A stretch of 64,000 bases of DNA, taken from NCBI RefSeq assembly GCF_019679435.2, contig NZ_CP139781.1, positions 5,700,001 to 5,764,000 of the forward strand, in the 5' to 3' direction. Made by a program: the position numbers and the translations under genes. Source of the stretch: Actomonas aquatica. Its GTDB lineage: Bacteria > Verrucomicrobiota > Verrucomicrobiia > Opitutales > Opitutaceae. Every line of letters begins with the position of its first letter. Within the stretch, counting starts at the first letter, position 1. Positions 9,508 to 39,170 of the stretch are shown piece after piece. The notes under the pieces were generated by a model. The model saw nothing but the letters and a program-made list of their open reading frames with translations, was not told the DNA's origin and did no database searches.

Positions 9508-9547
9508 GACTGGGTCGCAAAGTCGGTATTCGTCTATCCGACCCAGT
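9508..9547. terminator. Inverted repeat at the giant-gene / purL convergent junction
   Basis: ACTGGGTCG (9509-9517) and CGACCCAGT (9539-9547) can pair across a 21-nt loop between the convergent stop codons; the right arm uses the last codons of purL. There is no T-run, so this is at best a weak bidirectional terminator. Confidence 0.3.
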
Positions 9548-12500
9548 TGCGGGCGTTTCTAAAGAGTTTCATCCACGGGGAATCTTCGCCCCATTCCTTG
9601 GGCGACCAGCTCATGCAGCGGCTGCGGAAGACACGCTCGGGGTGGGGCATCATGATGGTGACGCGGCCGGTGGTGGTGGTGAGCGCGGTCATGCCGAGGG
9701 GGCTGCCGTTGGGGTTGAGCGGATACTTTTCCGTCGGCGTGTGGTGGTTGTCGCAGAAGCGAGCGGCGACTTGACCGCTGGCACTGAACGCTTCGGCGGC
9801 GGTGCGGTCTGCGAACTCGGCGTAACCTTCGCCGTGGGCGACGGCGATCGGCAGCACGCTGCCAGCCATGTCTTTAAACAGGATGGACGGAGACTCCTCG
9901 ATCTTGAGGGAGACGTAGCGGCCTTCGTAGCGCTCGCTTTGATTCTGCACGAAGTGCGGCCAGGCCTCGGCGCCGGGGATGATCGACTTGAGGTTGCTGA
10001 GCATCTGGCAGCCGTTGCAGACGCCGAGGGCAAAGGTGTCCTCGCGGGCGAAGAAGGCTTCAAACTCGGCGCGGGCGCGCGGGTTAAAGAGGATGCTCTT
10101 GGCCCAGCCTTCGCCGGCGCCCAGCACGTCGCCGTAGGAGAAACCACCGCAGGCGGCGAGACCACGGAAGTCGGCGAGCGAGACGCGACCTTCGAGGATG
10201 TCGGTCATATGCACATCGACGGCGCGGAAACCAGCGCGGTCGAAGGCGGCAGCCATCTCGACTTCGCCGTTCACGCCCTGTTCGCGCAATATCGCCATCG
10301 GGGGGCGCTGATCCGTTGGGATTTGGGATTTAGGATTTGGGATTTCCGAAAGTGAGAACGTCACTTTCGGCGAGATGCCGGGGTCGGTGGCGTCGAGTTT
10401 GTGTTTGTATTCTTGCTCGGCGCAGGCGGGGTTGTCGCGGAGGGCCGCGATGCGACGGGTGACGTCGGACCAGATGGCGCGCAGGTCGCTGAGGTTTTCC
10501 TCGAGCAGGGTCTGGTCGCCGGCGGTGACGCGGAAGGTGTAGTCGGTATTGAGTTTGCCGATACGGTGGGTGCAGTCGGCCAGGCCGGCGGTTGCGAGGG
10601 CGGCTTCGACGGCGGCCAGGTCGGTGTCGGCGACTTGGATGACGGCGCCGAGTTCTTCGTTGAAGAGGGCTGCGAAGGGGATGTCGGGCGTAAAGCCCGA
10701 CCCACATAGAGGTGCAAGGTCGAGGTCGACGCCGACGTGGCCGGCGAAGGCCATTTCGACGGCGGTGGCGAGCAGGCCACCGTCGGAGCGGTCGTGGTAG
10801 GCGAGCAGTTTGCCGTCGGCGCCGAGTTGCTGGATGACGTTCCAGAAAGCTTTGAGGTCGGCGGCGGAATCGACGTCGGGGGTGGCTTCGCCCATCTGTG
10901 AAACGACTTGGGCGAGGATGGAGCCGCCGAGGCGGTTTTGACCGCGACCGAGGTCGATGAGGAGGAGGGTCGAGTCGGCGTTCTGCGCGAGCTGCGGAGT
11001 GAGGGATTTACGAATGTCGGTGACCGGGGCGAAGGCGGAGACGATGAGCGAGACGGGGGCGGTCATGCGCTTGGTCTCGTCGCCGTCGGACCAGACGGTG
11101 CTCATGGACATGGAGTCCTTGCCGACCGGGATGGTGATGCCGAGCTCGGGGCAGAGTTCCATGCCGACGGCTTGGACGGCGGCGTAGAGGTCGGCGGCGT
11201 CGCCGGGCACGGCCGGGGCGGCCATCCAATTGGCGGAGAGGTTGACCTTGCCGATAGGGCCGATCTGAGCGGCGGCGAGATTGGTGAGGGCTTCACCGAC
11301 CGCGAGGCGGGCAGAGGCGGCGGCGGCGTTGACCGCGACGGGCGTGCGTTCACCCATGGCCATGGCTTCGCCGGTGTTGACGTCGAAGGTGGTGGCAGTG
11401 ACGGCGCAGTCGGCGACGGGGACCTGCCAGGGGCCGACCATTTGATCACGGCAGATGAGGCCGGTCACGGTGCGGTCGCCGATGGAAATGAGGAAGGTCT
11501 TGTCGGCCACGGTCGGGTGCACGAGGACGCGACGAACCGCCTCCTTGAGATCGATGTCGAGGGACAGAGGCAGCAGAGGGCGTTGCAGGCGGGTTTCGCT
11601 GCGGTGCATGCGGGGCGGTTTGCCGAGCAGGACCTCGAGTGGCATGTCGATGGGGGTATTGCCGAAGTGCGGGTCGGTGAGGACGAGGCGCTTTTCTTCG
11701 GTGGCTTCACCGACGACGGCGTAGGGGGCGCGCTCGCGGGCGCAGATGGCGGCAAAGGTGTCGAGGCGGTCGGCGGGGACGGCCATGACGTAGCGCTCCT
11801 GGGACTCGTTGCACCAGATCTCGAGCGGGGACATGCCCGGCTCGTCGTTGGGGAGCTTGCGCAGGTCGAAGCGACCACCGCGGCCGCCGTCGTTGATGAG
11901 TTCGGGCAGGGCGTTGGAGACACCACCGGCGCCGACGTCGTGGATGAAGGAAATGGGGTTGGCGTCGTCCATTGCCCAACAGGCGTCGATGACCTCCTGG
12001 CAGCGGCGTTCCATTTCGGGGTTCTCGCGTTGGACGGAGGCGAAATCGAGGTCCTCACTGCCGGTGCCGCTGGCCATGGAGGAGGCGGCACCACCGCCGA
12101 GGCCGATGAGCATGCAGGGGCCGCCGAGCACGATGAGTTTGTCGCCCGGGTTGATGGCGCCCTTCTCGACGTGGCCGGCTTTGATGTTGCCGAGGCCGCC
12201 GGCGAGCATGATCGGCTTGTGGTAGCCGCGCAGCTCCGCTGCGGGGGGCGGTAGGCTGTCAGCTTTCAGCGATAAGCTCTCTTCTGACTGAGGCTGATCG
12301 CTGAGGGCTGACTGCTGATCGCTCTTCGAAGCGGCGGGCACGGCGGCTTCGAAAGTGCGGAAGTAGCCGTTGATGGCGGGGCGGCCGAATTCGTTGTTGA
12401 AGGCGGCGCCGCCGAGGGGGCCTTCGATCATGATGTCGAGGGCGGAGACGATGCGGCTGGGTTTGCCGAAGTCGGTTTCCCAGGGCTGCTCGGCACCGGG

Positions 12501-13550
12501 CAGGCGGAGGTTGGACACGGTGAAGCCGGTGAGGCCGGCTTTGGGTTTGGAGCCGCGGCCGGTGGCGCCCTCGTCGCGGATCTCGCCGCCGGAGCCGGTG
12601 GCGGCGCCGGGGAAGGGGGAGATGGCGGTGGGGTGGTTGTGGGTCTCAACCTTGCAGAGGAGGTGGATGTCCTCGTCGTGGGCGGCGTAGTCGTGGGTGG
12701 CCGGATCGGCGTAGAAGCGGCCGCCGCGGGAGCCGACGAGCACGGCGGCGTTGTCCTTGTAGGCGGAGAGGATGCCTTCGCTGTGCAACTGGTGGGTGTT
12801 GCGGATCATGGCGAAGAGCGACTTGGCCTGCGCCTCGCCATCGATGTCCCAAGAGGCGTTGAAGATCTTGTGGCGGCAGTGCTCGGAGTTGGCCTGGGCG
12901 AACATCATGAGCTCGATGTCGTTGGGGTCGCGGCCGAGTTTGCGGAAGGCTTGGGCGAGGTATTCGATCTCGTCGTCGGCGAGGGCGAGTCCGAGTTCGG
13001 TGTTGGCGCGCACGAGAGCGGCGCGGCCCTCGGCGAGGACCGGCACGCTGGTGAGGGGCTTGGGCGATTCGTGGCGGAAGAGGGCGTCGCAGTCCTCCAC
13101 GCGGTTGAACACCGCCTGGGTCATGCGGTCGTGCAGGGCGCCGCGGAGGGCACTGAGCTGGCAGGCGGAGAGGTTCGAGAGCGGCTTCGGCAGGGCGGCG
13201 TTGTCGAAGGCGATGGTGTAGGCGATGACGCGCTCGATGCGTTTGACGGCGGTGAGGCCGCAAATGTGAGCGATGTCGGTGGCCTTGGACGACCAGGGGG
13301 AAATTGTGCCGGGGCGCGGGGCGACCACCTGGGTGAGGCCGTCGAGGCGGGCGGGGGCGCGCTTGGGGCCGTAGGTGAGGAGTTTTTCGAGCACGCCCTG
13401 CTGGTCGGGCGAGAGTTCTCCTTCGGCTTCAACCACATGCACAAAATCGGCCGTGATGGCGCGAGCCGGGATGCCGACGGCCGTCAGGCCATCGAGGAGT
13501 TTTTGAAGCCGAAAGGGCGAGAGAGCAGGGGAGCCGCGCAGGATCAACAT
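9534..13550 (-). CDS. purL: Phosphoribosylformylglycinamidine synthase (large, fused form)
   Basis: Converts FGAR, glutamine and ATP to FGAM in purine synthesis. I start it at ATG 13550 ([16 protein letters not shown]), which matches the PurL N-terminus; the frame continues upstream to 13796, but that part is the purF leader. This gives 1,338 residues, slightly longer than the E. coli enzyme (about 1,295). Visible are the linker and FGAM-synthase domains ([57 protein letters not shown]). The C-terminal glutaminase has its nucleophile in GVCNGCQML. The extra length comes from three in-frame insertions made of intergenic repeat sequence (12254-12325, 10683-10706, 10318-10345), each at a surface-loop position by comparison with the recalled E. 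coli sequence. Divergent from purF with a 229-bp shared upstream region. Confidence 0.95.
10318..10345 (-). repeat. In-frame ATTTGGGATTT-type repeat inside purL
   Basis: Tandem GGATTT(G/A) units on the plus strand encode the residues IPNPKSQI (about PurL 1068-1078), immediately before the glutaminase domain ([10 protein letters not shown]). By comparison with recalled E. coli PurL this stretch replaces unrelated linker residues. The same sequence style recurs between genes at 39137-39168, marking it as a mobile or expanding intergenic repeat. Confidence 0.6.
10683..10706 (-). repeat. In-frame palindromic GTCGGGC repeat inside purL
   Basis: Carries GTCGGGCGTAAAGCCCGAC followed by CCACA, identical over 24 bp to the two copies between purM and the M16 gene (16974-16997 and 17022-17045). 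In purL it reads as CGSGFTPD (about residues 948-956), just before [14 protein letters not shown]. The frame is preserved. Confidence 0.75.
12254..12325 (-). repeat. In-frame TCAGC/GATCAGC repeat inside purL
   Basis: A degenerate run of TCAGC, GATCAGC and CTGAAAGCTGA words encodes [17 protein letters not shown] and following residues (about PurL 408-432). It sits between FRTFE and [10 protein letters not shown], where the recalled E. coli protein has a short loop about 28 residues shorter. Related sequence is intergenic at 30160-30189. Confidence 0.65.
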
Positions 13551-13779
13551 GGTCAGGAAAGGCGCGACCGTCCCAAACCAGACCGGCCCGGTCAAGCGGG
13601 GGGCGAGCCGGGGGGCGATTTCGTGGCATGGCCGGAAAAAGCCGTTGACCGGTCCGGGCATCCTCCCGTGATTGTCCCCTTTTGACGCCCGTGAGAACTT
13701 CATCCGCTGAACCGGCCGCCCCCTTCGGCCTCGTCCCAACCCGCGGCGCTGCGCCGCGATCTCACCGCGCCCGCTCCCA

Positions 13780-15690
13780 ATGAGCGACAAGATCACCCAC
13801 GAGTGCGGTATCGCGATGGTGCGGCTGAAGAAGCCGCTCCAATATTATCAGGAGAAATACGGCACGCCGCTGTGGGGCTTCACCAAGCTCTTCCTCCTGA
13901 TGGAGAAGCAGCACAACCGTGGCCAGGATGGCGCGGGCGTGGCTTGCGTGAAATTTGATGTGCCGGCGGGCGACCCGTTCATGTTCCGCGAGCGCTGCGT
14001 GAAGGCCAATCCGCTGGACCGCATCTTCAAGCGCCTGCTGGGCGACTACAACAAGCTGGTCTCGCACGGCGACGCTCACCCGGAGTTCGCCAAGACGGTG
14101 AAGGAGCAGTTCGACTTCGGTGGTGAGCTCCTCCTCGGCCATTTGCGCTACGGCACCAGCGGCGGCTACAGCCAGAGTTCCTGTCACCCGTTTTTCCGCC
14201 GCAGTCCGTGGCCGACGCGCAATCTGGCGCTGTGCGGCAATTTTAACCTCACCAATACGGATGAGCTGAATCGCAACCTGATCGCGATGGGGCAGCACCC
14301 GATCTTCGCCACCGACACGCAGGCGCTGTTGGAGAAGGTGGGATTCTACCTCGATGAGGAGCACGACGATCTCTACCGCCAGTTGCGTGAGCAGAAGATG
14401 CCGGGCAAAGAGATTTCGGCGCAGATCTGCCGCGACCTCGACGTGCACCGCGTGATTCAGCGCGCCGGCGAGAAGTGGGACGGCGGTTACGTGCTGGCCG
14501 GCGCGGTCGGCAACGGCGACGCCTTCATCGTGCGCGACCCGTCGGGCATCCGCCCGTGTTTCTATTTTGAGAACGACGAAGTCATCGCGGTCGCTTCCGA
14601 GCGCGCGCCGCTCATGACGGTCTTTGATCTCGAACTCGCCGATGTGGAAGAGATGCCGCCCGCCAGCGTGATGGTGATCAAGAAGGACGGCACCCGCACC
14701 ATCAAAGCCTTCCGCGAGGAGCTGCCGCGCACGTCCTGCTCGTTCGAGCGGATCTATTTCTCGCGCGGCAACGACATCGATATCTACCGCGAGCGAAAGA
14801 CGCTGGGCGCCAAATTGGCGGATCAGGTGCTGGCTTCCGTCGACCACGACTGGGGCAACACGGTGTTCAGCTTCATTCCCAACACCGCCGAAGTCGCCTA
14901 CTACGGTCTGGTCTCGGCGCTGCGCGAACGTCGTCGCACGGAGGTGAAGGATGAAATCCTGCGCCGCTCGCAGGACGGCACGCTCACGCCGGAGAAGCTC
15001 GACGATCTCATCCTGCGCAATTGGCCGCGCAGCGAGAAGGTGGTGAGCAAGGACATCAAGCTGCGCACCTTCATCGGCCAGGAAGGCATGCGCAACCACC
15101 TCGCCAGCCACGTTTACGACATCACCTACGGCTCGGTCGATCCCGGGAAGGACAACCTCGTGTGCGTCGACGATTCGATCGTGCGCGGCACCACCTTGCG
15201 CAAATCCATCCTGCGCATCCTCACCCGCCTCAACCCGAAGAAGATCGTGATCGTGTCGACGGCGCCGCAGATCCGTTACCCGGATTGTTACGGCATCGAC
15301 ATGTCGGAGATCGGCAAATTCATCGCCTTCGAAGCGGCGGTCGAGTTGCTCAAGGAAAACGGCAAGGAAGAGCTGCTGGGCGAAGTGTATCGCCACTGCC
15401 GCCGGGCGGTGGAGACCGAGGAAGCGGTCAACCACGTCAAAAAGATCTACGAGCCCTTCACGCCGGAGGAGATCTCGGCGCGCATCGCCCGCATCGTGTA
15501 TCCGCAAAACGTCGATTGGGCGGGCGACGTCGAAGTGATTTTCCAGAGCGTCGAGAACCTGCACTCCGCGGTGCCGAATCACTCGGGCGACTGGTTCTTC
15601 ACCGGCGACTTCCCCACCGCGGGCGGCTTCCGCGTGGTGAATCAGGCCTACATCAACTTCTTCGAAAACTCCGACCGCCGCAGTTATTGA
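13780..15690 (+). CDS. purF: Amidophosphoribosyltransferase, long form
   Basis: First committed step of purine synthesis: PRPP plus glutamine to phosphoribosylamine. 636 residues, well above the roughly 500 of E. coli PurF. The N-terminal class II glutaminase has Cys9 ([10 protein letters not shown]) as likely nucleophile after an 8-residue leader, with HNRGQDGAG and [10 protein letters not shown] motifs. The phosphoribosyltransferase domain has the PRPP loop [12 protein letters not shown] at about 461-472. The extra length lies in inserts and an extended C-terminus ([18 protein letters not shown] and beyond). Divergent from purL; purM follows after a 150-bp gap occupied by an inverted-repeat module. 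Confidence 0.95.
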
Positions 15691-16973: not shown

Positions 16974-17045
16974 GTCGGGCGTAAAGCCCGACCCACAGCA
17001 AAGCACTAAGATCTCCTCCTCTGTGGGTCGGGCTTTACGCCCGAC
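16974..17045. repeat. Inverted pair of 24-bp GTCGGGC palindromic repeats
   Basis: GTCGGGCGTAAAGCCCGAC plus CCACA (16974-16997) is repeated as its exact reverse complement at 17022-17045, separated by 24 bp. Each arm is itself palindromic (GTCGGGC/GCCCGAC), and a partial copy (GTGTCGGGCGACC) lies at about 16953. The pair sits between the convergent purM and M16 genes and may help stop transcription, although no T-run follows. The same unit is inside purL. Confidence 0.75.
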
Positions 17046-30109: not shown

Positions 30110-30159
30110 GGGGCGAGGGCGACGGGTTTTGCGGGGAAGGCGAGGGAATTATGGGGGGA

Positions 30160-30189
30160 GCGATCAGCCATCAGCTGTCAGCGGTCAGG
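30160..30189. repeat. Intergenic TCAGC/GATCAGC repeat
   Basis: GCGATCAGCCATCAGC then TGTCAGCGGTCAGG: the same word family as the purL insertion at 12254-12325, here in the gap between divergent helicase genes. Confidence 0.55.
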
Positions 30190-30215
30190 GCGAACTCGAA
30201 GAGGCAGAGCGGTTT

Positions 30216-39131: not shown

Positions 39132-39136
39132 GGAAG

Positions 39137-39168
39137 GATTTTCGATTTGGGATTCTTGATTTTCGATT
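39137..39168. repeat. Intergenic GATTTGGGATT-type repeat
   Basis: GGATTTTCGATTTGGGATTC then TTGATTTTCGATTC: short tandem words of the same family as the purL insertion at 10318-10345. It lies between the small membrane protein and the histidine kinase. Confidence 0.55.
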
Positions 39169-39170
39169 CG

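Follow-up and report, generated by a model that had tools for sequence, protein, structure and literature searches.

The window, that is, the whole 64,000-nucleotide stretch of DNA analysed here, belongs to a genome of one contig (6.11 Mb) that was rated 100% complete. On its minus strand, positions 9534–13550 hold purL, the gene of the large-type phosphoribosylformylglycinamidine synthase, as a single open frame of 1338 aa. The assignment was made from Pfam domains (GATase_5, FGAR-AT_PurM_N-like, AIRS_C, FGAR-AT_N, and FGAR-AT_linker) and from a PDB match, of which the best was 1t3t, the PurL of Salmonella. The start codon is probably the ATG at 13550, where the homology to 1t3t begins; alternative starts lie at 13661 according to a codon-model gene caller and at 13796 for the mechanical open reading frame. 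An AlphaFold model spanning residues 190–1338 (mean pLDDT 73, pTM 0.77) resembled Salmonella PurL with a TM score of 0.87.

Three repeat elements are read within this one open frame, as the preliminary description had reported. The first, in loop A (positions 12254–12325, minus strand; anchor residues 405 and 439), consists of NNTCAGC units followed by inverted GCTGANN-like units. Loop B (10682–10706, minus strand; anchors 940 and 962) contains one whole unit of a repetitive extragenic palindrome (REP), T-GTGG-GTCGGGC-TTTAC-GCCCGAC-A, read as CGSGFTPDI. The third element comprises four GGATTT-type heptamers (10318–10345, minus strand), read as IPNPKSQIP, and occupies loop C (anchors 1065 and 1083), the linker before the glutaminase domain. 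Loops A and C are both tandem arrays with a period of seven: the units in loop C are near-identical to one another, and the TCAGC units in loop A vary at two of seven positions and are therefore neither near-identical nor classed as a simple repeat. The chance of finding all three families in one gene was estimated post hoc at 1.6e-8 for PurL and at 2e-5 for PurL-sized bins of coding DNA. A search of Rfam gave just two matches, with miRNA names and far under the gathering scores, which we disregarded.

The elements differ in how much they add to the protein. Loop A measures 33 aa, compared with 5 aa in eight gammaproteobacteria and a family median of 11 aa, and thus exceeds its relatives by 22–28 aa; the alignment to 1t3t was split precisely there, with residues 1–404 and 438–1338 of PurL matching residues 10–404 and 410–1303 of 1t3t. 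Loop B, at 21 aa, is approximately 7 aa longer than the family median (14 aa), and the gammaproteobacterial loops measure 15–20 aa. Loop C has 17 aa, compared with 16 aa in the gammaproteobacteria and 11 aa in two relatives of the same genus; judged by its sequence, this linker is rewritten rather than extended, showing no net gain over the gammaproteobacteria, and a small gain in length is possible. The earlier reading of all three elements as extra peptide therefore applies to loop A and, relative to the family, to loop B, but not to loop C. In the model, each of the three loops lies between secondary-structure elements. Loop A is predicted to be disordered between two strands, with pLDDT <50 at residues 412–433 (223–244 of the model fragment); loop B is flanked by two short helices and coincides with a local dip in confidence (block means of 91, 70, and 93); and loop C appears as an unstructured linker preceding the glutaminase domain (block mean of 63).

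The palindrome of loop B is abundant throughout the genome. With up to three mismatches, it had 118 matches (66 + 52), compared with none for the reversed pattern, and the window contained three occurrences where 0.01 was expected. Positions 10683–10706 (24 bp) are identical to 16974–16997 and to the reverse complement of 17022–17045, exactly as first described; these two copies form an intergenic inverted pair (REPIN-like; 16974–17045) whose arms both match over 24 bp and which is the closest relative of loop B. Many of the other matches were likewise inverted pairs lying tens of bases apart. To define the consensus, we used the window and 58 fetched stretches (661,557 bases), 57 of which surround copies among the matches listed (the first 100 places). 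This sample held 110 copies with up to three substitutions, and their consensus was T-GTGG-GTCGGGC-TTTAC-GCCCGAC-A. The GTGG tag at positions −4 to −1, which lies outside the stem, was kept in 107, 106, 106, and 104 of the 110 copies, respectively. The 7-bp stem (GTCGGGC/GCCCGAC) and the 5-base loop (TTTAC) are inside the limits of the GTAG superfamily, namely stems of 5–13 bp and loops of 2–20 bp (Table 1 of PMC3733652). According to the codon-model caller, 100 of the copies were intergenic, 5 were at gene edges, and 5 were within genes, in sampled DNA that is 86% coding. By its tag, its stem and loop size, its high and mainly intergenic copy number, and its frequent dimers, the loop B element is classified as a tagged REP of the GTAG superfamily.

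Among the five REPs within genes, those in PurL, in an HI0933-like flavoprotein, and in FdhD look real. The one in an aspartokinase (L203) was set aside as a chance match over residues that we take to be conserved in aspartokinases. The fifth, in an ASPIC/FG-GAP protein (L215), is no more than about a dozen residues away from the start that was called, and the true start may lie after it.

The heptamers were also repeated across the genome. TCAGCNNTCAGCNNTCAGC had 58 exact matches, compared with none for the reversed pattern, and GGGATTTGGGATTT, with up to one mismatch, had 28, compared with 2; matches overlap within arrays, and these counts are not counts of sites. Within the window, the two patterns at three mismatches gave 10 and 14 matches, barely above the 5.2 and 8.5 in shuffled sequences, respectively, so that the excess rests on the genome-wide search. 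The 72-bp element of loop A had 15 other matches in the genome (E values of 7e-4 to 0.7) at 14 distinct places. Two relatives are found in the window on the plus strand and outside the genes called by the codon model, namely a TCAGC array at 30155–30190 (related to loop A) and a degenerate GATTT array at 39135–39170 (related to loop C). Together with the REP pair at 16974–17045, they bear out the report of intergenic relatives within 30 kb. The 13 classified sites of GGATTT-type arrays, which include 20 of the 28 GGGATTT matches (the other eight being at 1361075, at 1451778–1452123 with six, and at 1453442), were divided into four in genes, one at a gene edge, and eight intergenic. The TCAGC-type arrays were in genes at 3 and intergenic at 12 of 15 classified sites; these sites derive from the search with the 72-bp element, and the search with the exact pattern listed further TCAGC places.

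The genome search thus located the repeats in other genes as well: REPs in the HI0933-like and FdhD genes, and heptamers in those of two SNF2 helicases, a flavodoxin/FAD reductase, a tRNA U5-methyltransferase-like protein, and the methionine synthase MetH. PurL is therefore not the only gene with in-frame heptamers, and among the genes examined it is the only one in which all three families occur together. In the tRNA U5-methyltransferase-like gene (L168, approximately 1460–1560), TCAGC and GATT heptamer stretches adjoin each other in frame.

In the 0.66-Mb sample, degenerate arrays with a period of seven were in excess, with 8 arrays of at least four units compared with 0 in shuffled sequences and 20 compared with 5 at three or more units; at the latter threshold, periods of 6 and 9 were likewise in excess, perhaps because of codons. 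The TCAGC elements (L164–L179 and 30155–30190 of the window) have five constant and two variable bases per unit and are arranged in two inverted arms. In four elements that fitted this scheme strictly, opposed variable dinucleotides were compared from the outer ends inwards, and none of 16 could pair; a TCAGC hairpin would therefore pair the constant blocks only. Of 120 genomes of the family, 50 contained the three-unit TCAGC pattern and a few its reversed control. Loop C of L017 showed a comparable 9-mer element, CACAGAG-NN, likewise with inverted arms, whose two-unit pattern was present in 73 of the 120 genomes (reversed control in two).

To place the three loops in a wider context, an alignment was made of 106 related PurL rows with 8 from gammaproteobacteria. 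The best named matches belonged to Puniceicoccaceae bacterium K14, Didemnitutus mandela, and an Opitutus metagenome-assembled genome, and the family is accordingly taken to be of the Opitutaceae type. The 106 rows include L025, which belongs to a sister family within the order, and the named metagenome-assembled genome L058, whose PurL is identical to that of L041; the cut loci L018, L020, L023, and L024 were replaced by L031–L034, and L013 was excluded as its frame is broken. The alignment showed loops A and B to be longer than their family medians and revealed six recurrent sites at which length mainly varies, namely 405–439 (A), 664–668, 854–862, 940–962 (B), 1065–1083 (C), and 1268–1273. 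When a long loop was defined as being at least 8 aa above the base length, the six sites carried 124 long loops; 68 of the 106 rows had one or more, 33 had two or more, and 14 had three or more, up to five in one gene, and 38 had none. By this threshold, PurL of the window is long at A only (B and C are 7 and 1 aa above base, respectively). The preliminary description had called three families in one gene unusual; within this family, a purL with several long loops is no rarity, at least three being present in 14 of 106 rows.

Length has changed repeatedly at these sites. A FastTree tree computed with the loops excluded required at least 25, 3, 17, 14, 17, and 7 changes to or from the long state at the six sites in order, or at least 83 overall, gains and losses being counted together. 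Two other kinds of length variation were set aside: region 107–139, which exceeds the gammaproteobacterial length in 45 of 106 rows with no repeat recognised there, and six cells of the 106 rows that were long at four other, N-terminal sites. In one genus (g51), all nine listed genomes (e.g., G057 and G090; completeness of 87–98%) were without a match to the large PurL at an E value of 1e-80; their PurL may instead be of the small type, which relatives at the order level also seem to have.

Many of the long loops consist of recognisable hairpin repeats, namely REP doublets, heptamers, or 9-mers. Within the window's genus, loop B contains a GTGG REP in the window, a GTAG doublet in G001, and a GTGG doublet in G002, and loop A contains one GTGG REP in G002 and two, as a doublet, in G003. 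The loop at 854–862 of G023 contains the inverted pair GGCACGGGCGTCCCGCCCGTG, and loop C of G011 contains CACAGAG-NN units in two inverted arms. Hairpin z-scores, which were calculated from plain shuffles preserving base composition alone, were below −2 in 54 of the 117 loops that reach 60 nt, compared with 6.8% of 351 control pieces from the same genes. The proportion was high at A (18/37), 854–862 (11/17), C (17/31), and 1268–1273 (4/7), and the excess was weak at loop B (3/21) and 664–668 (1/4). One element also turned up in different loops in different species, for example with 98% identity over 51 nt, compared with 66% at fourfold core sites, and in four genomes one element occurred in two loops of a single purL. 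Near-identical inserts in two loops of the same purL were observed in L291 and L303 (98% over 104 nt and 96% over 84 nt, respectively), reflecting either another insertion event or copying between the loops.

For two relatives, the loops were searched against whole genomes. In its own genome, the purL element of G010 had at least 50 matches, purL itself accounting for two; 40 of 222 candidates were scored, and at some places both strands were counted. The loop element of G001 had at least 59 matches in G001 (40 of 94 candidates scored) and at least 65 in the window's genome (40 of 98), mostly to one half of the doublet, and none in the whole genomes of G002 and G003. In 1.57 Mb of searched sequence, approximately half of which came from the window's genome, 30 of the 124 long loops matched outside purL, compared with 45 of 620 control pieces; the repeat origin of the 94 long loops that had no match outside purL in this sequence is putative.

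Other proteins behaved differently. PurL in the same relatives had 39 long loops in 23 rows and a length standard deviation (sd) of 47 aa, whereas RpoB had one long loop in 19 rows (sd of 4.2 aa) and PurF had none in 30 rows (sd of 1.3 aa), these being the 30 of the 106 purL loci that carry a whole PurF. CarB, for which lengths, matched spans, and inserts in sense rows were used, ranged from 1049 to 1068 aa (sd of 4.5 aa) with two real inserts in 20 rows; L323, one of the 21 family loci, gave no row. The rows of RpoB, CarB, and PurF are thus nearly free of inserts relative to PurL, three control proteins being few. A second CarB of G009 has an insert of approximately 50 aa, and other insertion-tolerant proteins therefore exist. 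The suggestion of insertion-tolerant PurL loops, with repeats as a possible source of new ones, gained support, in that six loops are recurrently long, many of them with repeats, and the control proteins have almost none.

By construction, each of the 106 PurL rows is a single open frame. Among 20 further purL loci, 13 were complete and open, and in the other 7 contig ends were the only interruption. One purL is broken, in the draft genome G007 (L013) from the window's genus: an in-frame stop is present shortly upstream of loop A and the usual conserved stretch is absent, which represents either a sequencing error or real decay. The aligned pieces of the homology search pass over this part of the gene and therefore showed no stop.

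We consider it highly probable that hairpin repeats insert widely in these genomes and that selection keeps in-frame copies in a few tolerant PurL loops. Short hairpin repeats, that is, GTAG/GTGG-tagged REPs and their doublets, heptamer arrays with inverted arms, and 9-mer arrays, would spread in the genomes of the family, with REP copies presumably moved by RAYT-type transposition. Most copies would persist solely in intergenic DNA, as insertions into coding sequence would mostly be purged, and several PurL loops would tolerate added or replaced residues, so that in-frame and stop-free insertions are retained there. Repeats active in a given lineage would then refill the loops time after time and would be translated as part of a protein that presumably stays functional. 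Direct observation covers the repeats themselves and the number of copies that the window's genome holds, the loop sites common to many species, their turnover, frames that are open in all but one case, and the low rate in controls; tolerance rather than targeting would determine the sites of insertion.

For the heptamer loops only, replication slippage in place, within low-complexity linkers and with no mobile element, is possible, but we regard it as doubtful. It overlaps with the explanation by inserted and selected hairpin repeats, which still covers the REPs, and the likelihoods of the two need not sum to one. Heptanucleotides are the most abundant class of 5–11-nt repeats in most genomes surveyed in PMC4679880, and loop C of several members of the genus shows differing heptamer-like runs, as judged by eye; both would suit slippage. 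However, the TCAGC and GGATTT families occur at 15 and 13 separate genome sites, respectively, several heptamer sites combine inverted arms with a varying dinucleotide, which is unexpected from simple slippage, and the REPs would be left unexplained. A further proposal, which we put forward only tentatively, is that the heptamer and 9-mer arrays, whose units have 5 or 7 constant bases and two variable ones and which are arranged in two inverted arms, might constitute a widespread and undescribed class of mobile hairpins whose mover enzyme has yet to be named. The large PurL would record the activity of this class as its loops accept in-frame copies, and some copies might now be working loops.

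Retention for function, whereby the repeats supply useful segments for interaction, regulation, or stability, seems improbable. The A-loop element of L038, L043, and L053 is 89–96% identical, compared with 70–86% at fourfold core sites, indicating that its DNA, at least, is well kept; recent arrival may also account for this identity, and the fast turnover (at least 83 changes), the very low model confidence of loop A, and the 38 of 106 rows without a long loop all speak against adaptation. Even less probable is that purL is a preferred DNA target, with movers recognising a sequence or structure there, and targeting rather than tolerance explaining why the loops are hit. Recurrence at six sites, with as many as five long loops in one purL, and the presence of the same element twice in one purL of four genomes would be expected of a target, but distinct repeat classes (REP doublets, heptamers, and 9-mers) enter the same loops, gammaproteobacterial B loops already differ in length (15–20 aa), and loops A, B, and C lie between the secondary-structure elements of the model. 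A sequencing or assembly artefact, or a chance likeness of linker codons to repeats, can be dismissed with near certainty, as one chance match among five in-gene REPs (aspartokinase) and one draft purL with a stop near loop A are outweighed by a complete single-contig genome, by exact 24-bp identity with exact REP copies that share tag and flank, and by the recurrence of the pattern in many independent genomes.

Insertion and selective retention of hairpin repeats in PurL has partial precedents. Intragenic GTAG-tagged REPs were reported in Opitutus terrae in 2013, GTGG being the tag of most of its GTAG-20 elements (PMC3733652). The elements described here agree with that account in their tagged stem-loops, their GTGG tag, their occurrence as singles and doublets, and their mainly intergenic location with some copies in open reading frames; they differ from it in that several classes repeatedly invade one enzyme and in-frame heptamers take part. 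The main text of PMC3733652 names neither purL nor phosphoribosylformylglycinamidine, and its Additional file 3 may list purL. The Rickettsia palindromic elements (RPEs), cited as an analogy in the preliminary description, are similarly translated in frame within proteins, but RPE-4 and RPE-6 are tagged with CGTC (PMC3733652) rather than GTGG, and heptamer arrays are also involved here; O. terrae is therefore the closer precedent. The heptanucleotide repeats of Beggiatoaceae, cyanobacteria, and Xanthomonas are also tandem 7-base units over-represented between genes, including GGGAATC units that resemble GGGATTT (PMC4679880, PMC4692102); unlike the repeats as presented there, the TCAGC family has five constant and two variable bases, inverted arms, and in-frame copies in enzymes. 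Intragenic REPs in O. terrae and RPEs in Rickettsia were thus already known. A search of one open-licence library listed no paper on repeats in purL, and, as far as this search reaches, it is new that several repeat classes, in-frame heptamer elements among them, converge throughout a family on loops of the same housekeeping enzyme.

The system amounts to a natural, replicated experiment on new protein segments, with one housekeeping enzyme, six loops, and dozens of independent length changes. Several purL inserts have an identifiable DNA source, with near relatives that lack each insert, which makes the feeding of protein evolution by selfish repeats directly testable; purL could also act as a sensor of the repeats that are active in a lineage. 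The doublets of tagged palindromes recall REPIN/RAYT systems, and two Y1_Tnp genes of this genome lie amid tagged REPs. In contrast to those systems, the GTCGGGC family was found within 1.5 kb of none of the genome's nine Y1_Tnp matches; its own gene may have diverged, been lost, or lie farther away. The two genes amid REPs (L186 at genome position 5784837 and L187 at 3120960) are surrounded by tagged REPs that are repeated but belong to other families (GTAGCCGCGGGCGTGTCGCCCGCG and GTGGCCGAGGCTTCCAGCCTCGG, for example), and both loci likely represent RAYT–REP pairs.
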